A stretch of DNA of 25,001 nt from a virus, in IMG/VR virus record IMGVR_UViG_3300011420_000109, positions 1 through 25,001 of that record. One strand, written 5' to 3'. Shown here piece by piece: positions 127 through 10,624 of this stretch. A program made the translations under genes and the position numbers. The notes below the pieces were generated by a model, which saw only the letters and a list, made by a program, of their open reading frames with translations, was not told the origin of the DNA and searched no databases. Each line of letters begins with the position of its first letter. The stretch's first letter is position 1.

Positions 127-1134
127 ATGTTTGAAAACATGCGGTTTACGACCGGCAACACCAAGAGTCCGATCGCCGGTGCGTTGCTTCGTTCACTCGG
201 AGAGAATGGTGAACTCTCTATCGCGTCGTTGCGGTCGCTCTCGCCGTTGAGTGATCGTGCGCAGATCGCGGTCGACAAGGCCGTGGTTGAGGTTGGTCTC
301 GAACGTCTGACGTTCGCTGCCGACATCATGGCAGCGGGTCTGACCTACCCACTGACCGATCCTCTGTCGGTCACCCAGCTCGAGTGGGAAAGCACCGGAA
401 AGTCGGGCGGTGCACAGCGCACGATGTCTCCGTCGGCTCGTGGTGAAAACCAGTTGCCGGATCGCATCATCAATCGGTTGCCCATCTATCTGACCACCGA
501 CGACTTCAGCCTCGGCATCCGCACGTTGAAGATGTCGCAGCGAGTCGGTCAGCCGTTGGACACCGCGCTAATCAAGCAGGCCACTCGTCGTGTCAATGAG
601 GCCATCGAGGATGCGGCCATCAACGGTACGACCACCGTTGACGGTTCAGCACTCGTAGTCGGTGGTTACGGCGCACCCGGTCTGTTGAACGCTCCCAACG
701 CCAACGTTCACACGTTGACCGCCTCGTGGGTTACCGCGACCGGTGATCAGATCTACACCGACGTTGCGGCGATGATCTCGAAGTTGCAGGCTGACAAGAA
801 GTACGGTCCCTACAACTTGTATGTCGGCACCGCGTTCGGTGGTGGCATCGACCGCGACTTCAAGGCCAACGGTACGTTGACGATTCGTCAGCGACTGCTT
901 GCCATTGACCAGCTTCAGAGCATCAAGACCGCCGACATGCTCCCTGTCAACAAGGCTGTGATCGTGCAGATGACCTCGGATGTCATCGACATGGTCACCG
1001 GTCAGCCACCCACGGTCATTCCGTGGACGTCACTCGATGGCTTCACGCTCTTCTGGCTCGTGATGGCCATCATGGTGCCTCGAGTTCGTTCGGACTACGA
1101 TGGCAACAGCGGGATCGTCATCGGAAGTGTGTAA
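127..1134 (+). CDS. Major capsid protein, HK97 fold, encapsulin-like family
   Basis: This is the 335-residue shell subunit of the phage head. The stretch at residues 118-168 (LPIYLTTDDFSLGIR, later GQPLDTALIKQATRRVNEAI, then ED and NG) matches the pattern of encapsulin-like capsid proteins: a beta strand, the DF-x-L-x-x-R segment and the long spine helix. The C-terminal half (GPYNLYVG, TIRQRLLAIDQ, VQMTSDVIDMV, then PRVRSDYDGNSGI) is also typical of this family. There is no long N-terminal delta domain, so assembly probably relies on a separate scaffold or on none. GGAGGA lies 9 bases before the ATG. A stem-loop follows the stop. The fold assignment is from remembered family patterns, not a search. 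Confidence 0.88.
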   Translation: MFENMRFTTGNTKSPIAGALLRSLGENGELSIASLRSLSPLSDRAQIAVDKAVVEVGLERLTFAADIMAAGLTYPLTDPLSVTQLEWESTGKSGGAQRTMSPSARGENQLPDRIINRLPIYLTTDDFSLGIRTLKMSQRVGQPLDTALIKQATRRVNEAIEDAAINGTTTVDGSALVVGGYGAPGLLNAPNANVHTLTASWVTATGDQIYTDVAAMISKLQADKKYGPYNLYVGTAFGGGIDRDFKANGTLTIRQRLLAIDQLQSIKTADMLPVNKAVIVQMTSDVIDMVTGQPPTVIPWTSLDGFTLFWLVMAIMVPRVRSDYDGNSGIVIGSV

Positions 1135-1945: not shown

Positions 1946-2524
1946 ATGCCACTCGTCGTTACACCTGGATCTGGGCTGGCTGATAGCTATGCGAGTCTTG
2001 TTGAGGCTGCCTCTTATGATGCTGCCTATCGAGGTGGTATCTTTGACACCGTTTGGACTGCTGCAACAGATGCGAAACGTGAGGCCGCGCTACGAACTGC
2101 AGCTCACTTACTCGACGCATCTTTTGTGTGGACCGGCGTGGCTATCGATGCCATACAAGCACTTGCGTGGCCGCGATCTGGGATGTTAAGCCGTAACGGA
2201 TTTGCGATCACCGAAGGTGTGATCCCACAAGACTTAAAGAACGCGCAGGCAGAGTTTGCACGTCAGCTGTTGGCTGCGGATCGCGCGGCTGATGATGACG
2301 TCGCACGCATGAACCTTCAGAGCCTGGGCGTTGGTTCGGTTAGCTTATCGTTTAAGAAGGCCGATACTGACGCAAACGCACTAGCACTTCGTAGTCAAGC
2401 GTTTGCATACCTATCAAACGTTGTGCCTGATGCGGTTAAGTCGTGGTTGGTTCCGTCGTGGTTTGTTGCACCGCTGTTGAGTGAGGTTGTGCAACGATAC
2501 GCGGAATTTGATGTGATCCCATGA
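1946..2524 (+). CDS. DnaT-like head-tail adaptor (connector) protein
   Basis: This 192-residue protein matches the phage family named 'putative DnaT-like ssDNA-binding protein'. Despite the name, that family behaves as a head-tail connector subunit that docks on the portal ring. Visible family features are an N-terminal SYASLVEAASY segment, a helix with AALRTAAHLLDASFVW, the motif ALAWPRSGM near the middle, and the helix PQDLKNAQAEFARQLL. The usual Y-x-x-L-x-E-A-x-x-Y and L-x-W-P-R signatures are both present. AAGGAGC sits well before the ATG. Its stop overlaps the start of the next gene by 4 bases (ATGA), so the two should be translated together. Confidence 0.82.
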   Translation: MPLVVTPGSGLADSYASLVEAASYDAAYRGGIFDTVWTAATDAKREAALRTAAHLLDASFVWTGVAIDAIQALAWPRSGMLSRNGFAITEGVIPQDLKNAQAEFARQLLAADRAADDDVARMNLQSLGVGSVSLSFKKADTDANALALRSQAFAYLSNVVPDAVKSWLVPSWFVAPLLSEVVQRYAEFDVIP

Positions 2525-2904
2525 GCTTACTTGATATCGTCCGTTCAGGCGTTAAGTTAGCTGACAAGCTGACAGACTCACTTCAGTCAACAGTGACATA
2601 CGAGCGTCACACCGGTGATGATGGATATGGAACCGATATATTTGCCGCGCCTGTGACACTAAAAGCTGTCGTTGATTGGAAGCAAAAGCATCTTCGAACA
2701 TCAACAGGTGAACTGTCGGTAAGTCGTGCTTCGGTGATGTTCATTGACATTGCGGAGCTAAACGCTGCCACAGGAGGTGCTGGTCTCAACGATGGTGATC
2801 GAATCACGTTAGCCGACGGTACCACAGGTCCGATACTGGACATGAGCGGATTTATCGACGCGGGAACTGGACATCCTGTTGCGACGGAGGTGTTCCTTGG
2901 ATAA
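2521..2904 (+). CDS. Probable head stopper / head completion protein
   Basis: The 127-residue protein starts at an ATGA overlap with the adaptor gene. It is a small, beta-rich protein with segments such as STVTYERHTGDDGYGTDIF, VVDWKQKHLRT and LNDGDRITLADGTTGPIL. A charged N-terminal helix followed by a small beta-barrel is the usual build of siphovirus head-closure proteins (SPP1 gp16 type), and the position directly after the adaptor supports that. I cannot see a diagnostic motif, so the call rests mostly on order and size. Its last codons carry the Shine-Dalgarno site for the first glycosyltransferase gene, which starts inside it. Confidence 0.65.
   Translation: MSLLDIVRSGVKLADKLTDSLQSTVTYERHTGDDGYGTDIFAAPVTLKAVVDWKQKHLRTSTGELSVSRASVMFIDIAELNAATGGAGLNDGDRITLADGTTGPILDMSGFIDAGTGHPVATEVFLG
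2886..2899 (+). promoter_or_regulatory. Ribosome binding site and TTG start for the first cassette gene
   Basis: GGAGG at 2886-2890 lies 6 bases before TTG 2897-2899, inside the stopper gene. This chooses TTG 2897 over another TTG at 2879, which has no comparable site and would add RRRCSL. The product then begins MDKLTICFTYFK, as expected for a GT-A N-terminal strand. Confidence 0.75.
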
Positions 2905-3664
2905 GCTCACGATTTGCTTTACGTACTTTAAGAGCTTAAGCTTATCAAACCTCGAGGCCGCGTTGTATACGGTGCGACAACAGGATCTCCCACGAGTTCA
3001 GTCAATCATCATTGTGGATAACGATTCACCTGATGAACGTCAGTCCATTCAAAACATTATCAATGACATGCAGTTTCCGGTGCCCGTTGAACTGCTCTCA
3101 TTTAAACACGGAGATGCAACCAAGACACACTCATGGTCTACAAATGTTGCGATCTCACACGCCACCACGCCTTGGGTCTTGTTTACACGTGCTGATTACC
3201 TACTTGACTTTAACTTGCTGTTGAAATTTTATGAGGTGATGGCGTCAAAGCCACGTGACTGGGACGGTTTTATTACTGGAAACGTGTATCACCTACAACC
3301 TGACATCGGCGCCTGTAACACGATAAACTGGCGACGTTTCGGACCATCAGAACTTCGTGCGTTACCGGGAACTGAAGAACAATACATGGTCATTGACGCA
3401 GGCGTGTGGATGATACGTCGTCAAGCACATCAGCGAGTTGGTGGTTTAGACGAATCACTCACGGCGTGGGGTCACGCACAAACACACTTTCAGTATAAGC
3501 TTCACCAGACGGGAACCGAATTTGTTCGCATACCACAACCGCTATTCTTTCATCCAATGCATGGGGCGCCGAGAGACATCTCACTTGCACATCAACAGTT
3601 ACAAGAACGCGGCATCAACATAAAAGAACTGTGGGCACGTTACGAGGGAGTTCAACCGTACTAA
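2897..3664 (+). CDS. GT-A (family 2-like) glycosyltransferase
   Basis: The 255-residue product has a GT-A nucleotide-sugar transferase build. An N-terminal strand (LTICFTYFK) is followed by SIIIVDNDSPDE at 36-47, the usual first acidic site of GT2 enzymes. A helix with N83 follows, then VLFTRADYLLDF, where R98-A-D100 occupies the DXD metal/nucleotide position. Later, GVWMIRRQAHQRVGGLDE is the familiar acceptor-side segment. No signal peptide or membrane segment is visible, so it should act in the cytoplasm. It overlaps the stopper gene by 8 bases and the next gene by 1 (TAATG). The first Asp of DXD being Arg is a mild departure. Donor and acceptor cannot be read from sequence. Confidence 0.82.
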   Translation: MDKLTICFTYFKSLSLSNLEAALYTVRQQDLPRVQSIIIVDNDSPDERQSIQNIINDMQFPVPVELLSFKHGDATKTHSWSTNVAISHATTPWVLFTRADYLLDFNLLLKFYEVMASKPRDWDGFITGNVYHLQPDIGACNTINWRRFGPSELRALPGTEEQYMVIDAGVWMIRRQAHQRVGGLDESLTAWGHAQTHFQYKLHQTGTEFVRIPQPLFFHPMHGAPRDISLAHQQLQERGINIKELWARYEGVQPY

Positions 3665-4446
3665 TGAGACCCTACAATCGTTCGTTACACCCAGACGACT
3701 ATCAGTTTCTTGTGAAGTGGGATGCTGAACTACGTGTTCACCTACAAGACATGGTCAATCGTGGTGTTCCACATCGTGAGTGGCATCCTCATCGATTCTG
3801 GGAATATGCAAGCATCCTCCAGCAGCTAGAAGAACTTGGTGTCTCTGAACGCGCTGAGATGATTGACCTTGGTAGTGGTGCGTCGTTCTTTGACCCGTAT
3901 CTGACAACCCAGTTTCCGTTGTTGTGCTGCACAGACAACATGCAGTATGGTGATATCAGTCCTGAGGTTGAGGCTCAGCGACGCGCGTTCAACATCTCAC
4001 TACCACTGTGGGCCATCGACATCGAAGATATGCGTGAGGGAGCTGTTCCAGGATGGGGTGGCGCGACAGACAAGTTTGATGTGACGATGTGTATCTCGTC
4101 CATCGAACACGTGACGAACCACGATAAGGCGATGTGGGAACTCATCCGCATCACCAAGCCAGGTGGGTACATCTTCATCACCTCGGATTATTTTCGCGAT
4201 ACTGACCACTGGAATGTATCGGTGTCCAAGCACTTACAGATAACGCCATACACTCTTGACTACGTGTCGAGTATCCCAAGTACGTTCGGACTTGATTTTG
4301 TTGGGTCAACTGACTTTGAATACAAGGGAGACTTCGTTCATAATTACAGCTTCGTTAACCTCTGTCTTCGTAAACGTGCGGCATCCACTTCTGCGGTTGC
4401 ATCTAAGCAACTGGCGGATGACAACGGAAAGGCACCAACCAAATGA
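3664..4446 (+). CDS. Class I SAM-dependent methyltransferase
   Basis: The 260-residue protein has a Rossmann methyltransferase core. Motif I is IDLGSGAS at residues 67-74, the SAM-binding Gly loop. An acidic strand end follows (CCTDNMQ), then FDVTMCISSIEHV, which is the motif IV/post-IV area of the Methyltransf_11 type, and ITKPGGYIFIT, the usual strand after motif IV. The residue modified cannot be deduced; O-methylation of a sugar made by the neighbouring transferases is the natural guess. The start at 3664 shares one base with the preceding stop, and the end overlaps the radical SAM gene by 4 bases. DNA methylation is unlikely: no DPPY- or PCQ-type motif is visible. Confidence 0.82.
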   Translation: MRPYNRSLHPDDYQFLVKWDAELRVHLQDMVNRGVPHREWHPHRFWEYASILQQLEELGVSERAEMIDLGSGASFFDPYLTTQFPLLCCTDNMQYGDISPEVEAQRRAFNISLPLWAIDIEDMREGAVPGWGGATDKFDVTMCISSIEHVTNHDKAMWELIRITKPGGYIFITSDYFRDTDHWNVSVSKHLQITPYTLDYVSSIPSTFGLDFVGSTDFEYKGDFVHNYSFVNLCLRKRAASTSAVASKQLADDNGKAPTK

Positions 4447-6047
4447 GCAACATCATTCCGGCTTCGTCGCTCAACAGCGCGTATCAGATGTCGTCTGGTG
4501 GTTCTTGTGATTCTGTGACGACATCTGGTCTGCCACTGCGCAAGATCCCAAGAAAGAAAATTCACTGTATTCTTCCATCATCGCCGTGGCTCGCCGATAG
4601 TAAGACTAACGTGCCGCTCGGTGTGCTCTACATCGCCGGGCTTCTTCGTGAGCAAGGGCACGAAATTGTCGTCACTTCCATGCTCGACAAGCGGTATGAG
4701 GGGAACATTCATCTGCCTGACGAGGTCATGGATAGTGACGTCCACATGTTTGGGTTCTGTACTCCGCAGTTCGGTGAGGCGCTGGAGCTTGCGGCTTATA
4801 TCAAAGATCGCAACCCCGAGGCTCTACTTGTCGCTGGCGGGCCGCATCCTTCATATGAGCCGAGGGAGGTCTACGAAGCCGGACGGCAGGAGCATTACCA
4901 TTATAAGGGTACCTTGTCATCGCGACGTGATTACAAGGCAGCAGACGGACGCCGATTGTTCGACTCTGTTGTGGTGATGGAAGGTGAGGTAGCGGTTCTA
5001 CAACTTCTATCAGACTGGGACGCGGGCAAATTGCAACCGTATTACTACGGTGATAAGGCTGACGCCATGGACCTCGATGCCATCCCGTTTCCAGCCTGGG
5101 ATCTGCTGCCGCACGATCACATCTACAACGACGGCGTCGCGGTGATGAAGAAGAAGTTCTTCCCGAATGAGGCGCATCCTGACGCGTCTAGCGCGGTGAT
5201 GTCCCTCATTGGCACACGCGGCTGCCCTTACAAGTGCACCTACTGTAGCACGCCGTGGATCGGCCAAAAGCCGCGCTACCGCTCGCCGCACAACATCATC
5301 GCAGAGATGTCGCTGGTGATGGACAAAGGCGTACGCATGTTCAAGTTCCAAGATGACACTTACACCTTACACAAGACCAAGCTGCGCGAGTTGGCCGACG
5401 CCGTCGACTCCGCCTTCGGCCGCGACGCCTTCGCCGCGCGCATCCACACGCGCGTCAATACGATGGACGATCACGTAGCAGAATCGCTCAAGCGCATGTC
5501 ATGCAAGGTGACGTGCTTTGGCGTTGAGTCCGGGTCCCAGCGCGTTTTGGACGCGAACCAAAAAGGCACGAAGGTAGCCCAGAACACCGCCGCCATCATC
5601 AACGCCCACAACCACGGATTCTACACCATCGCGTTCCTCGTCATCGGCATGGCAGGTGAGACGATGGAGACGATGAAAGAGACACAAGACTGGCTCTTGT
5701 CTGTCAAACCGTATCTGAACTCGTGTAACCTTGCTGTCGGTATCCCATATCCCGGTAGTCAGTGGTGGACTGACCCGCAGAAGAGTGGCATCGACATCAT
5801 CGACTACAACTACGACAACCAGTGGATCGTTGGTTTCTCCGCGCGTGACGAGGTACTTGTTCGTCCACACGGTTGCACTATCGAGGAAATGTTCAAGATC
5901 AAACGAGAGATGTTTGATTTCCTCGTGTATCACGGCTGGGCAAAAGCCGAGTGGGATGATGATGTTCGCATTCGTCAACAGCAAGAACAGGCAGCCAAAG
6001 ACGGAACGCTAACGGCGGCGTCCGGACTCACATACGCAGGGCACTAA
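4443..6047 (+). CDS. Radical SAM enzyme with probable N-terminal cobalamin-binding domain
   Basis: The 534-residue product is a 'B12-binding domain radical SAM' type protein. After about 38 residues, an N-terminal Rossmann-like domain runs from IHCILPSSPW through VPLGVLYIAGLLREQGHE to the motif GGPHPSYEPREV (G132-G133-P134) and VVMEGEVAV. The His of the classical DxHxxG cobalamin motif is not visible, which is common in this class. The radical SAM core carries GCPYKCTYC, with C261, C265 and C268 as the 4Fe-4S ligands. CFGVESGSQRVLD and IGMAGETMETM are the typical later strands. Such enzymes often methylate unactivated carbon or phosphorus, or rearrange rings. Bases of about 4560-5660 are much more GC-rich than the neighbours, suggesting recent acquisition. 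Confidence 0.88.
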   Translation: MSNIIPASSLNSAYQMSSGGSCDSVTTSGLPLRKIPRKKIHCILPSSPWLADSKTNVPLGVLYIAGLLREQGHEIVVTSMLDKRYEGNIHLPDEVMDSDVHMFGFCTPQFGEALELAAYIKDRNPEALLVAGGPHPSYEPREVYEAGRQEHYHYKGTLSSRRDYKAADGRRLFDSVVVMEGEVAVLQLLSDWDAGKLQPYYYGDKADAMDLDAIPFPAWDLLPHDHIYNDGVAVMKKKFFPNEAHPDASSAVMSLIGTRGCPYKCTYCSTPWIGQKPRYRSPHNIIAEMSLVMDKGVRMFKFQDDTYTLHKTKLRELADAVDSAFGRDAFAARIHTRVNTMDDHVAESLKRMSCKVTCFGVESGSQRVLDANQKGTKVAQNTAAIINAHNHGFYTIAFLVIGMAGETMETMKETQDWLLSVKPYLNSCNLAVGIPYPGSQWWTDPQKSGIDIIDYNYDNQWIVGFSARDEVLVRPHGCTIEEMFKIKREMFDFLVYHGWAKAEWDDDVRIRQQQEQAAKDGTLTAASGLTYAGH

Positions 6048-6706
6048 TGTATTCGAAGATCTCTGTTCTCGTGCCGACACGTGGTCGTGTGACCATGTTG
6101 ATGACGCTACTCGACTCCTACGATCGCACAACTGTAGGATTTGAAAATGCGTCTGAGCTGGTGTTTCGTGTTGATGATGACGACCTTGAAACGCAATCTT
6201 TTTTGGCCGGTGAACATATGATCATCGGACCGCGAGAGAAGGGTTACGAGAGCTTACCACAGTTCTTTAATGAACTTGCAATGGTGGCATCAGGAGATAT
6301 CTTGATGCTAGGCAATGATGATGTGGTGTTTGTTACCGAAGGCTGGGCGCCGAAGATCTTGGAGGTCGCTAATCATTTCCCTGATGGCGTGTTTAACATT
6401 GGAGTGAAGACGCATAACGTGGATCACTACCCACTGTCAACCGTATCTAAGACTGTGGTGAACAAGTTAGGTTTCTTGTTTGATCCACGCATCTTTTGGG
6501 GTGACATCTTCCTTCGAGATGTGATAGGCAGGCTCGAACGCAACGTGATGCTTGAGGACGTTGAGATCCAACATGTGTGGGCGGGCTACGCTCCTGACCA
6601 AACCTTCATCGAGGGTGAATTAGCTCGTCGTTCTAATTGGATGGCGCATCACGTGCAAGCCGTTGATGAAGCTGAAGCAAAACTCAAGGAGTTGATGGTT
6701 GCGTGA
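6047..6706 (+). CDS. GT-A (family 2-like) glycosyltransferase
   Basis: The 219-residue protein begins with KISVLVPTRGR, the classic first strand and loop of GT2 enzymes. A first acidic cluster lies at RVDDDD (41-46), and the probable DXD metal site is GNDDVVF with N90-D91-D92. IFWGDIFLRDVI follows in the region where acceptor-binding residues lie. There is no membrane segment. It shares one base with the preceding stop (TAATG) and overlaps the next gene by 4 bases, so it is in the same translational unit. Its codon use returns to that of the phage background, unlike the radical SAM gene just before. The sugar donor and acceptor are unknown. Confidence 0.8.
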   Translation: MYSKISVLVPTRGRVTMLMTLLDSYDRTTVGFENASELVFRVDDDDLETQSFLAGEHMIIGPREKGYESLPQFFNELAMVASGDILMLGNDDVVFVTEGWAPKILEVANHFPDGVFNIGVKTHNVDHYPLSTVSKTVVNKLGFLFDPRIFWGDIFLRDVIGRLERNVMLEDVEIQHVWAGYAPDQTFIEGELARRSNWMAHHVQAVDEAEAKLKELMVA

Positions 6707-7269
6707 GCATTAGCTTTATCGTCGCTACACAGTGTCGAGAAACAATAGCTGCGACGTTAGCGTCCATCGAATGTTGGCCGGGCGACGAAATTCTTGTTGT
6801 GAGTGACATGTCACTAAACTTACACATGCAAAGTTTTGTGATGAACAATAAGTATGTGAAATGCATGCATCATCTAGCTGGTAATGACTGGGGTCACACA
6901 GAACGTAACTTTGCGATGCCTTATGCGAAAGGTGACTACATCGCTCATCTCGATGATGATGACGTGTATGCGTTGAATCACCGCGTGATCATGGAAGGTG
7001 TTCTTCAAAAATATCCGGGTCGACCGGTCATCTTTCGAATGCGATACAAGAACGGAGCAATTCTGTGGCGTGATAGGATCGTTCGCGTTGGAAACGTGGG
7101 CACACCGATGTCACTCTTACCGAATGATCCAATGAACCGCGGTGAGTTTGGTTCTTACTACGGTGGTGACATTTTCTATCTTGAAAGTTTTGCCGCACGT
7201 GCTGGTTACGCATCTGAGGACTTCGTTTGGTCTGAGGAAACGACGGTGTTGATTCGACCGCACACATAA
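6703..7269 (+). CDS. Small GT-A (family 2-like) glycosyltransferase
   Basis: The 188-residue product starts at GTG in a GTGA overlap with the previous gene. It carries a first strand SISFIVATQCR, a helix ending GDEILVVSD, the segment RNFAMPYAKGDYIAHLDDDDVY with DDDD at 84-87 as the DXD site, and a C-terminal WSEETTVLIRP. These are GT2-type features. It is shorter than the other three GT-A enzymes here, so the C-terminal acceptor part is minimal or the gene has been trimmed. It has no hydrophobic export or membrane segment. An acceptor role in the same glycan pathway is inferred from the operon. Confidence 0.78.
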   Translation: MSISFIVATQCRETIAATLASIECWPGDEILVVSDMSLNLHMQSFVMNNKYVKCMHHLAGNDWGHTERNFAMPYAKGDYIAHLDDDDVYALNHRVIMEGVLQKYPGRPVIFRMRYKNGAILWRDRIVRVGNVGTPMSLLPNDPMNRGEFGSYYGGDIFYLESFAARAGYASEDFVWSEETTVLIRPHT

Positions 7270-7276
7270 GGAAAGA

Positions 7277-7939
7277 ATGATGAAGCCTGTCTATCTTGGA
7301 GTGCCGGTGTTACGTCGATATGATTTGCTTAGGCAGTTACTGTTATCAGCCGACGCTGGAACTGTTAAGCCTGAGCTTGTGGTGATTATCGACAACGGAA
7401 AGAAAGATGATCACGTTGCCGAAGCCATCAGTGATCTCTCATTTCCTGTTGAAGTGTTCACACCGGCGATACCACTAGGAGTGGCGTCCTCATGGAATCA
7501 TCTCATTCAACGGCTTCCGGAAGAACGCATCATCACCAATGACGACATCACGTTCGAATTGGACTCTGTTGAAAAGCTTCGTGATACACCTGGTGATCTG
7601 GTTTTTGGTTATGGCTATTCGTGTTACTTGATACGAGACAGTGCGATTCAGAAGATCGGACTGTTTGATGAGGCCATCTCTCCAGGGTACGCATACTGGG
7701 AAGACATCGACTACGACATGCGAGTACGCATGGCGATTCACCACGGTGTCGATTTTGTGCAGGTCAACGCTCCGTGTGTGATCAATCACCTCGGTAGCCA
7801 AACAAACGTGTGGGCAACAGCGGAAGAGATCGAGGACCATCACCGAAAGTTCGGTGTTGCAAGGACAAACTTCAAGAACAAATGGGCGCATCTTCCTGAG
7901 GAGATGCAACATCCGGCGCTGGTTGGAGCAAAATCATGA
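7277..7939 (+). CDS. GT-A (family 2-like) glycosyltransferase
   Basis: The 220-residue protein starts VYLGVPVLRRYDLL, then LVVIIDNG near residue 34-41, and the segment IPLGVASSWNHLIQ at 65-78, where GT2 enzymes usually have an LGxxxxxN loop. IITNDDITFE follows, with N88-D89-D90 at the DXD position. AYWEDIDYDMRVRM matches the W-E-D-x-D-x-x-x-R acceptor/base motif of rhamnosyltransferase-like GT2 enzymes. AAGGA precedes a double ATG; 7280 is an equally good start. It is the only cassette gene with a gap (7 bases) before it. It overlaps the next gene by 4 bases. Confidence 0.82.
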   Translation: MMKPVYLGVPVLRRYDLLRQLLLSADAGTVKPELVVIIDNGKKDDHVAEAISDLSFPVEVFTPAIPLGVASSWNHLIQRLPEERIITNDDITFELDSVEKLRDTPGDLVFGYGYSCYLIRDSAIQKIGLFDEAISPGYAYWEDIDYDMRVRMAIHHGVDFVQVNAPCVINHLGSQTNVWATAEEIEDHHRKFGVARTNFKNKWAHLPEEMQHPALVGAKS

Positions 7940-9111
7940 AGAAGCTGTTGTGGGTTGGAGATGCCGGTGTTCCATCAGGATTTGCACGCGCGACTCACGA
8001 GATTCTCGATGTGTTACGTAAGACATACGACATCACGGTGCTTGGGATGAGCTATCGAGGTGATCCGCATGATTACCCGTATCCCATCTACGCGGCGATG
8101 GCTGGTGGTGATCAGATGGGTCTAGGTCGACTGATCTGGATGTGTGACACGGTGAAGCCCGATGTCATCGTTCTTCAGAACGATCCGTGGAACATTCCAG
8201 CGTACATTCAGTTGCTCGCTGACTTTCCCGAACATGCGAACATCCCGGTTGTGGCGTGTGTTGCCGTTGACGGTAAGAACGTTCCGACACGAAGCATGAA
8301 TGGCCTTGCCCATGCGATCTTTTGGACACAGTTTGGTCTTGATGAAGCTCGCATCGGCGGCTATAATGGACCTGCATCTGTCATTCCGTTGGGTGTCGAT
8401 CTCAACGTTTACTTTCCACTTGATAAGAAAGAGGCTCGTCAGCGTCGAACGAGTAGTGACTTTTATCAAGACAAGTTTATCGTGGGCAACGTGAACCGCA
8501 ATCAACCACGAAAGCGTTGGGACTTAACCATCAAGTACTTTGCCCAGTGGGTAGAGTGGATGCACGTTGAAGATGCGTTCTTGTACTTACACGTCGCACC
8601 CACAGGTGATAAGGGTGTCAACGTTCAGCAGCTGTGCAAGTACTACGGAATTCTCGAGCGTCTCATGCTTGTTGAACCACACGTGTTTTACGGTATCGCC
8701 GAACACGAGATGCGAGACACGTGCAACTGTTTTGACGTGTCTATCAACACCGGTCAAGGTGAGGGCTTTGGACTTACGACCATTGAGGCGATGGCGTGTG
8801 GTGTTCCGTGTATTGCACCTGATTGGTCGGGTCTTGGTGATTGGGCAAAGGATGCGATCGAGCTAATTCCTTGCACCTCAACGGCGGTTGGCCCACCTTA
8901 CATCAACGTTATCGGTGGCATTCCTGACCAAGCGATGTTCATGGCCGCACTTGATAAGGTTTATCGTGATCATTCACATCGTGCTACGTTGAGAAAGTTA
9001 GGTTTGAGACGTGCTGCAGAAATGCGCTTCAACTGGAAACATATCGGTGAGCGTTACGTTGAAGAGATCGGACGTGTTCTTCAGCCGAGTGAATCACTAA
9101 CGGAGGCATGA
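7936..9111 (+). CDS. GT-B (family 4/1-like) glycosyltransferase
   Basis: The 391-residue protein has the two-Rossmann GT-B plan. The N-terminal domain starts KKLLWVGDAGVPSGFARA, with a Gly-rich loop. The linker region has VIPLGVDLNVYFP and FIVGNVNRNQPRKRWDL, the characteristic start of the C-terminal donor-binding domain. The E-x7-E donor motif is EGFGLTTIE with E276 and E284, followed by AMACGVPCIAPDWSG. These are strong GT4 signs, so it uses a nucleotide-activated sugar in the cytoplasm. It overlaps the previous gene by 4 bases and shares one base with the next structural gene. It is the last cassette gene and the only GT-B enzyme. Confidence 0.9.
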   Translation: MKKLLWVGDAGVPSGFARATHEILDVLRKTYDITVLGMSYRGDPHDYPYPIYAAMAGGDQMGLGRLIWMCDTVKPDVIVLQNDPWNIPAYIQLLADFPEHANIPVVACVAVDGKNVPTRSMNGLAHAIFWTQFGLDEARIGGYNGPASVIPLGVDLNVYFPLDKKEARQRRTSSDFYQDKFIVGNVNRNQPRKRWDLTIKYFAQWVEWMHVEDAFLYLHVAPTGDKGVNVQQLCKYYGILERLMLVEPHVFYGIAEHEMRDTCNCFDVSINTGQGEGFGLTTIEAMACGVPCIAPDWSGLGDWAKDAIELIPCTSTAVGPPYINVIGGIPDQAMFMAALDKVYRDHSHRATLRKLGLRRAAEMRFNWKHIGERYVEEIGRVLQPSESLTEA

Positions 9112-9533
9112 TGCCAAATGAAGTGCGAGGCGTCGCCGCTATGAATGACAAGATTCGAAGCTTTACACGACAATTTCCTGCGATCGTGCGTCCGGCTATG
9201 CGTGAGGAGGCTGAGGTTGAGGCGACCGAATCAAAGAAGCGTGCACCAGTGTATAGTGGTCCAACGGGGCCCAACTATCCGATACCCGGTGTCTTACGTG
9301 CGTCAATTCACGTTGAGGGTCCGTTTCAACGCGGCTCTGTGATCTACGCCGACATCGTCGCCGGTGGTGCTGCAGGTGCATACGCCTTGAGCCAACATGA
9401 AGAGCTTGATTGGTTTCACAAGATCGGAGAGGCAAAGTACATCGAGTCTGTCATCATGGAATCACGTGCGTTTATGGCCGCACGACTAGCCGCAAACATT
9501 CGTAACAGGATCGCGATGTTAGGTGGGCTTTAA
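9111..9533 (+). CDS. HK97 gp10-like head-tail connector / tail completion protein
   Basis: The 140-residue product fits the HK97 gp10 family: an N-terminal helix, RAPVYSGPTGPNYPIPGVLRASI (the usual 'P..TG.LR.SI' area), then YALSQHEELDWFH and GEAKYIESVI, which match the Y-A-x-x-x-H-E and A-K-Y-L-E signatures. It belongs to the neck between head stopper and tail terminator. CGGAGG at 9101-9106 is 1 base from ATG 9108 but 4 bases from ATG 9111, so 9111 is preferred; ATG 9141 is a third option. It normally follows the stopper gene directly; here 6.2 kb of sugar-modifying genes lie between them. Confidence 0.82.
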   Translation: MPNEVRGVAAMNDKIRSFTRQFPAIVRPAMREEAEVEATESKKRAPVYSGPTGPNYPIPGVLRASIHVEGPFQRGSVIYADIVAGGAAGAYALSQHEELDWFHKIGEAKYIESVIMESRAFMAARLAANIRNRIAMLGGL

Positions 9534-9967: not shown

Positions 9968-10624
9968 ATGAGTAACGCGGTCACATCAACTGGAATCTTG
10001 GTTAAGAGAGGCGCGATCGTGCCTATCGCAGCTAAGACCATTTCCACGAACAGCCTCGCGAATCCGACCGTGGTTACGACCTCCACGGCCCATGGATTAT
10101 CAAGTACTGACGAGGTCACGATTACAGGGTCGAACTCCACACCTTCCATCAACGGTACTCACAGGGTTACTGTGTTGTCACCGACCACGTTCTCAATTCC
10201 GGTGAACGTAACCATCGCTGGAAGCGCCGGTTCGGTACAGCCCATCTTTACGACCATCGCCGAGATCACCGGAGTCACACCTGGTGGTAAGAGTCGTAAC
10301 AAGATCGAAACATCGACGCACAACGAACAAACCGAGAGTCATCTCCTCGGTATCTTGCGTCAGTCTGATCCTGCGTTGAAGATCAACTACATCGGTAGTG
10401 GTGACGCATCTCATGATCAGTTGCAGTACGACATCGACAACAACATTAAGGCCAACTGGAAGTTCTTGTTCCCGTCTGGAGTGGCACGAACCGGACAGGG
10501 ATACGTTCAGCAGTTCATGTATGATGAAGCTGCAGTTGACAGCAAGCAGGGCGCGAACATCATCATCACGTGGGCAGGCCGTGTCACCGAGTCGGTGGAA
10601 GCACCCCGTGCGATTGATGCCTAA
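9968..10624 (+). CDS. Major tail tube protein with an inserted FCCH-like domain
   Basis: The 218-residue protein is placed and built like a siphovirus tail tube subunit: a start strand (GILVKRG), then TTIAEITGVTPGGKSRNKIE with THNEQTE, the usual tube motif, and a C-terminal beta region. Between these, residues about 24-91 carry an extra module: NPTVVTTSTAHGLSSTDEV, then SINGTHRVTVLSPTTFSIP. This 'HGL...V.I.G......NGT..V......F.I' pattern is the small repeat that databases label as ubiquitin-activating E1 FCCH-like in phage structural proteins; no ubiquitin function is implied. The insert probably projects from the tube surface. AGGGAG precedes the ATG. Confidence 0.8.
   Translation: MSNAVTSTGILVKRGAIVPIAAKTISTNSLANPTVVTTSTAHGLSSTDEVTITGSNSTPSINGTHRVTVLSPTTFSIPVNVTIAGSAGSVQPIFTTIAEITGVTPGGKSRNKIETSTHNEQTESHLLGILRQSDPALKINYIGSGDASHDQLQYDIDNNIKANWKFLFPSGVARTGQGYVQQFMYDEAAVDSKQGANIIITWAGRVTESVEAPRAIDA

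Follow-up and report, generated by a model that had tools for sequence, protein, structure and literature searches.

The window analysed here, a virus record of 25,001 bases whose structural and enzyme genes all lie on the + strand, carries seven enzyme genes within its head-tail block (2897-9111). With a probability of roughly 0.6, we propose that these genes encode a cytosolic phage pathway that builds a C-methylated glycan on the virion, with enzymes that are exchangeable at this site. The proposal builds on the gene content of the cassette, its conservation and purifying selection, a one-for-one swap between its radical SAM enzyme and members of a sugar C-methyltransferase family, and the existence of empty and partial sites. 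In the proposed pathway, which would probably be expressed late together with the structural genes, five soluble glycosyltransferases would use host nucleotide sugars, the radical SAM enzyme would alter one sugar at a carbon atom, with C-methylation as the most likely reaction, and a class I methyltransferase would probably contribute an O-methyl group. The glycan would be placed onto a virion protein, where it may serve in shielding, adsorption or stability.

Seven enzyme genes at a variable connector-gp10 site

Downstream of the major capsid protein gene (127..1134; phrog_771, 3e-19; phrog_264, 9e-13), the gene series comprises a head-tail adaptor, a connector, the seven enzymes, a gp10-like protein, a further connector, the tail tube, a chaperone and a probable tape-measure protein. 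The adaptor Ad1 (1946..2524; phrog_477, 5e-28) precedes the head-tail connector that delimits the variable glycan site on the left (2521..2904; phrog_3881, 4e-9), and the right border is set by the gp10-like tail completion/connector gene (9108..9533), which shows a weak match to phrog_5 (1.6e-4) and an HK97-gp10_like score under the cut-off. The first cassette gene, encoding the GT-A glycosyltransferase GT1 (2897..3664; PF00535, Glycos_transf_2, 1.3e-7), starts at a TTG codon and overlaps the connector gene. It is followed by genes for a SAM-dependent class I methyltransferase (MT; 3664..4446; PF08241, Methyltransf_11, 6.6e-7), probably an O-methylating enzyme, and for a B12-type radical SAM enzyme (rSAM; 4443..6047; PF04055, Radical_SAM, 7.5e-19; PF02310, B12-binding, 2.7e-11). 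The remaining genes encode three further GT-A glycosyltransferases, namely GT2 (6047..6706; phrog_14945, 4e-15), GT3 (6703..7269; PF00535, Glycos_transf_2, 1.2e-6) and GT4 (7277..7939; phrog_29879, 2e-23, with Glycos_transf_2 slightly under the cut-off), and a GT-B glycosyltransferase (7936..9111; phrog_2170, 3e-33, with GT4-conflict and Glycos_transf_1 matches). GT2 has no Pfam match; its AlphaFold model (pLDDT 90.5) resembles GT-A enzymes such as SpsA, and its GNDD motif is invariant, as is the DDDD motif of GT3. Taken together, the Pfam and phrog matches and the GT2 model identify five glycosyltransferase genes, and all seven genes that the initial annotation had listed (four GT-A, one GT-B, MT and rSAM) were found in place. 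Adjacent genes share a few bases at most junctions, as would be the case in a single translated operon. A recent import was not apparent from base composition, as the cassette, at 48-56% GC, shows no clear difference from its surroundings.

The major capsid protein (127..1134) served as the query to collect relatives with and without the cassette. Among the records found in this way, L057, L059 and L058 carry the connector and gp10 genes without an insert, 20, 56 and 194 bp apart, respectively, in agreement with the earlier claim that the two genes are normally adjacent, and the Glycos_transf_2 family gave no match across the 19-121 kb of the empty-site records. After removal of near copies, the connector-gp10 interval was empty in three lineages, held GT-B alone in five, GT-B with other sequence in 13 and the rSAM cassette in two records, while the other cargo at the site includes further glycosyltransferases and methyltransferases. 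The cassette had initially been described as inserted into the connector block; its position between connector and gp10 holds, but the interval represents a variable locus for glycan genes rather than the product of a single insertion.

In group A (the window, L001, L004, L006, L008 and others), where the cassette sits between connector and gp10, GT-B adjoins gp10 in the relatives and is the sole occupant of the site in several. This constant place beside gp10 suggests that GT-B probably catalyzes the first or protein-linked step. Overall, the locus would resemble a bacterial capsule locus in that its borders and GT-B stay constant whereas the enzymes in between are exchanged, which alters the glycan. 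A broader proposal, to which we give somewhat less than even odds, is that tailed phages possess, flanked by fixed connectors, a variable 'coat glycan' locus, a counterpart of bacterial capsule and O-antigen loci, at which sugar-tailoring enzymes, including rSAM and the C-methyltransferase, are exchanged and the particle surface is altered.

Amino-sugar variants of the locus were also observed, in which a cupin and a DegT/DnrJ-type sugar aminotransferase follow the connector (L049, 5789-7275; L066, 12966-14446). Behind its connector, L052 (12382-15037) likewise encodes, at this site, a cupin, a DegT/DnrJ aminotransferase and a distant sugar C-methyltransferase. Among isolated phages, Synechococcus phage S-CBS4 (gp014-gp016) carries a GT-B relative (32%, full length) and a methyltransferase in its head gene block; unlike in the window, rSAM is absent and the genes lie between portal and capsid rather than between connectors.

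Recurrence in uncultured phages

Copies of rSAM are present in 31 viral contigs (60-91% identity) and on one contig of a MAG labelled Sulfuricaulis (L033, 87%), and a profile search for further carriers returned nothing beyond these 31 viral contigs. After L033, cellular relatives share 20-30% identity. The isolated-phage collection held no rSAM match above 25% identity, no phage nearly identical to the window and no close copy of the cassette. GT1, GT2 and GT3 accompany rSAM in nearly all rSAM loci, and a neighborhood search recovered the same gene set in about 30 contigs of uncultured phages, most of them fragmentary records, with the conserved order GT1-(MT)-rSAM-GT2-(GT4)-GT3-(GT-B). MT is missing from some of these cassettes, and GT4 precedes GT3 in many relatives, the reverse of the window order. 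Because of this recurrence, chance grouping of the cassette genes is excluded. The combination, previously regarded as uncommon, is indeed absent from isolated phages but conserved among uncultured ones, and we found no earlier account of it in the open-access literature.

Phages of group C (L010, L016, L026, L027 and others) possess a different capsid family (phrog_617), unrelated to that of group A. Here, the cassette lies 3' of the portal gene and a collagen-like fibre gene and 5' of the head-tail adaptor gene, and it includes extra GT-like genes. The same head-tail placement in two unrelated structural settings argues for a link between the cassette and the particle. An exception to this placement is the 116-kb phage record L024 (6148-11620), in which MT, GT1 and rSAM are located near DNA polymerase/replication genes, away from the structural genes; L024 was rejected as a full cassette, since GT2 was not found in its record. 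In a further, unrelated phage record (L156, 8008-12175), three consecutive genes encode a GT2-like fusion, a B12-type rSAM that is distantly related (28%) and an NDP-sugar epimerase-like protein; here, rSAM and sugar genes are paired independently.

Proposed target and candidate acceptors of the glycan

The virion is the best reading of the glycan target, and we infer it from the soluble enzymes, the structural-block position in two capsid groups, the lack of a hydroxymethylase and the precedents for glycosylated phage particles described in PMC12363180 and PMC12619734. Glycosyltransferases of phages, such as those of pelagiphages (PMC7029224), are often interpreted as remodelling the surface glycan of the infected host, and such a role, in excluding other phages or in helping release, would accord with the fact that our analysis names no virion acceptor. 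We nevertheless consider it unlikely, as the cassette contains neither a flippase nor a membrane-bound glycosyltransferase, the trait of serotype conversion, and none of its seven proteins has a membrane segment (highest 19-residue hydropathy, 1.41). The position within the structural block in two capsid groups speaks against it as well.

Hypermodification of the phage DNA, in which sugars would be added to hydroxymethylated bases and then methylated as a defense against restriction, appears rather improbable. A thymidylate-synthase-type hydroxymethylase was detected in none of the 19 (incomplete) records, with the control positive in nine genomes, and both capsid groups have the cassette genes inside the head-tail block. 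The neighbors of rSAM, MT and GT1 in L024 are, on the other hand, replication genes, and there are precedents for viral glycosyltransferases that act on DNA and attach a variety of glycans to it (Pyle et al. 2024, cited by PMC12619734). A search for the Tet_JBP dioxygenase matched 0 of 18 records, with no control signal in that search.

Attachment to the virion, the reading that we prefer, has parallels in the mycobacteriophages Che8, Corndog and Myrna, for which virion glycosylation is described (Freeman et al. 2023, according to the citing text of PMC12363180). The virion target of the phage-encoded glycosyltransferases has been shown there, whereas here the genes point to it, and the comparison with Corndog and Che8 made in the initial annotation stands as an analogy only; in the isolated-phage collection, the matches of GT1, GT2, GT-B and rSAM include no mycobacteriophage. 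To our knowledge, these three mycobacteriophages have neither an rSAM nor an exchangeable cassette between connector genes. As to the methylated glycan of several sugars that had been proposed on the particle, its synthesis by the cassette is well supported, and the enzyme swap and the AprD4 relation presented below place the modification more specifically on a sugar carbon; its attachment to the particle is suggested by gene position and the soluble enzymes. Few examples of glycosylated phage particles are known; if our reading is correct, uncultured environmental phages build and diversify their own surface glycans from a conserved, widespread locus.

Most of the S/T/P-richest proteins of the loci are encoded right after the capsid gene. 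In the window, the capsid gene is immediately followed (1191-1897) by genes for two short proteins rich in S/T/P, of which the second contains an IPT/TIG domain; both are possible decoration proteins. S/T/P-rich and IPT proteins were rejected as a general acceptor, since L004 carries a full cassette without them and empty-site phages retain the IPT gene; collagen-like fibres were rejected because they are present only in capsid group C. No general acceptor was thus found among these candidates, each being restricted to part of the loci. In group C, the collagen-like fibre gene is located upstream of the glycosyltransferase genes (L010, 6196-7116; also L011, L012, L016, L021, L026, L027 and L030), and in L010 the next gene matches a sialyltransferase family (phrog_4603). 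A weak E1_FCCH-like module was identified in the tail-tube protein (window, 9968-10624; L011, 20309-21583). Similar S/T-rich stretches occur in other structural proteins of the relatives (e.g. the L033 adaptor), so the module may represent a mobile domain.

The radical SAM enzyme and its replacement

Both a radical SAM core and an N-terminal B12-binding domain (PF02310, 43.8 bits against a cut-off of 32.1) are present in rSAM, which assigns it to the B12-type (class B) radical SAM enzymes, and the cysteines of its CxxxCxxC motif (C261, C265 and C268) are invariant in 21 sequences. Cobalamin binding is predicted from these features; AprD4 retains a B12-type domain without using cobalamin. Across pairs of loci, the median amino-acid identity of rSAM is 0.81 at a four-fold-site identity of 0.43, compared with 0.48-0.59 at 0.31-0.38 for MT and the glycosyltransferases. 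MT, the glycosyltransferases and the structural proteins together are 39-59% identical, and the four-fold degenerate sites of all genes fall between 0.30 and 0.44. The protein is therefore highly conserved while its synonymous sites are as scrambled as those of the other genes, which demonstrates strong purifying selection on rSAM and rejects recent transfer as the cause of its high identity. The divergence of MT tracks that of rSAM (r = 0.88).

The GT2 search turned up cassettes without rSAM. In seven contigs, the rSAM slot is occupied by a protein of ~405 residues with the architecture PF08421+PF13489+PF08484 (Methyltransf_13, methyltransferase and Methyltransf_14, present in L130 and L146), which aligns over its full length with the D-mycarose 3-C-methyltransferase MtmC and with TcaB9 (E values of 1e-37 to 1e-40). 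Among the loci with a visible slot, 52 hold rSAM, 10 hold the C-methyltransferase, and none holds both or neither; these counts include overlapping loci and correspond to about 29 and 7 distinct contigs, several of which are close relatives. In phylogenetic trees, the C-methyltransferase cassettes fall among the rSAM ones, consistent with one event for GT1 and at least two for GT2, whose tree requires three label changes, at least two of them forced by well supported branches. The slot is thus shared by rSAM and relatives of sugar 3-C-methyltransferases of the TcaB9, MtmC and KijD1 type, which are non-homologous to rSAM and use a different chemistry. Such a natural swap of two non-homologous enzymes is a rarely available clue to the reaction of an uncharacterized radical SAM family, although sharing one slot need not imply an identical reaction.

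rSAM shares the CxxxCxxC motif and the B12-type N-terminal domain with AprD4, HpnJ, BchE, PhpK and TsrM, of which AprD4 acts on a sugar. It differs from the cellular B12-type enzymes in its low identity (about 20-30%, with scores far under every NCBIfam cut-off) and in forming a phage-borne clade with conserved terminal peptides. The nearest solved structure is AprD4 (with the sugar compound paromamine), both by sequence (1e-18) and by the AlphaFold model, which is of moderate confidence (pLDDT 69) and was read at the fold level only. B12-dependent radical SAM enzymes that C-methylate sugar rings are known from gentamicin biosynthesis, namely GenK and GenD1 (PMC4340712). Their likeness to rSAM is one of proposed reaction type, and they differ in belonging to bacterial antibiotic pathways with small-molecule substrates. 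Together, the slot swap, the AprD4 relation and the known sugar C-methylating enzymes point to a sugar carbon as the substrate and favor C-methylation. Sugar chemistry of the cassette is well supported, and we consider C-methylation of a sugar carbon the most likely reaction of rSAM, with deoxygenation as the main alternative.

Under that alternative, the glycan would still be placed on the virion, and rSAM would be a sugar dehydratase/deoxygenase similar to AprD4, its closest structural relative, which is itself a dehydratase and does not methylate. This seems quite unlikely, given that rSAM reaches 67.2 bits where the AprD4 family (NF033070) requires 500, that the partner at the slot is a C-methyltransferase, and that no AprD3-like reductase occurs among the cassette genes or the other annotated genes of the window, a fragment. 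That rSAM and the glycosyltransferases are mere neighbors with separate purposes, as its far higher conservation than that of the adjacent genes and its separation from GT2/GT3 in L024 might suggest, is highly improbable in view of the gene order conserved in about 30 contigs and the one-for-one replacement by a protein related to sugar-methylating enzymes within that order. If C-methylation on the virion is correct, the cassette extends the B12-type radical SAM enzymes by a clade that is carried by phages and whose sugar substrate can be tested.

Both ends of rSAM are conserved, comprising the first 30 residues (SxYQMS...C...SGLP) and the last 12 (TYAGH), which have low confidence in the model and are possible docking peptides. 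In L139 (5981-8836; a contig shared with L030), the rSAM gene is interrupted by an in-frame intein of ~418 residues, with Hint and Intein_splicing matches, positioned immediately before the third cysteine of CxxxCxxC. An overlapping open reading frame in another frame inside this intein (7014-7982), which has no Pfam match, might encode a homing endonuclease.
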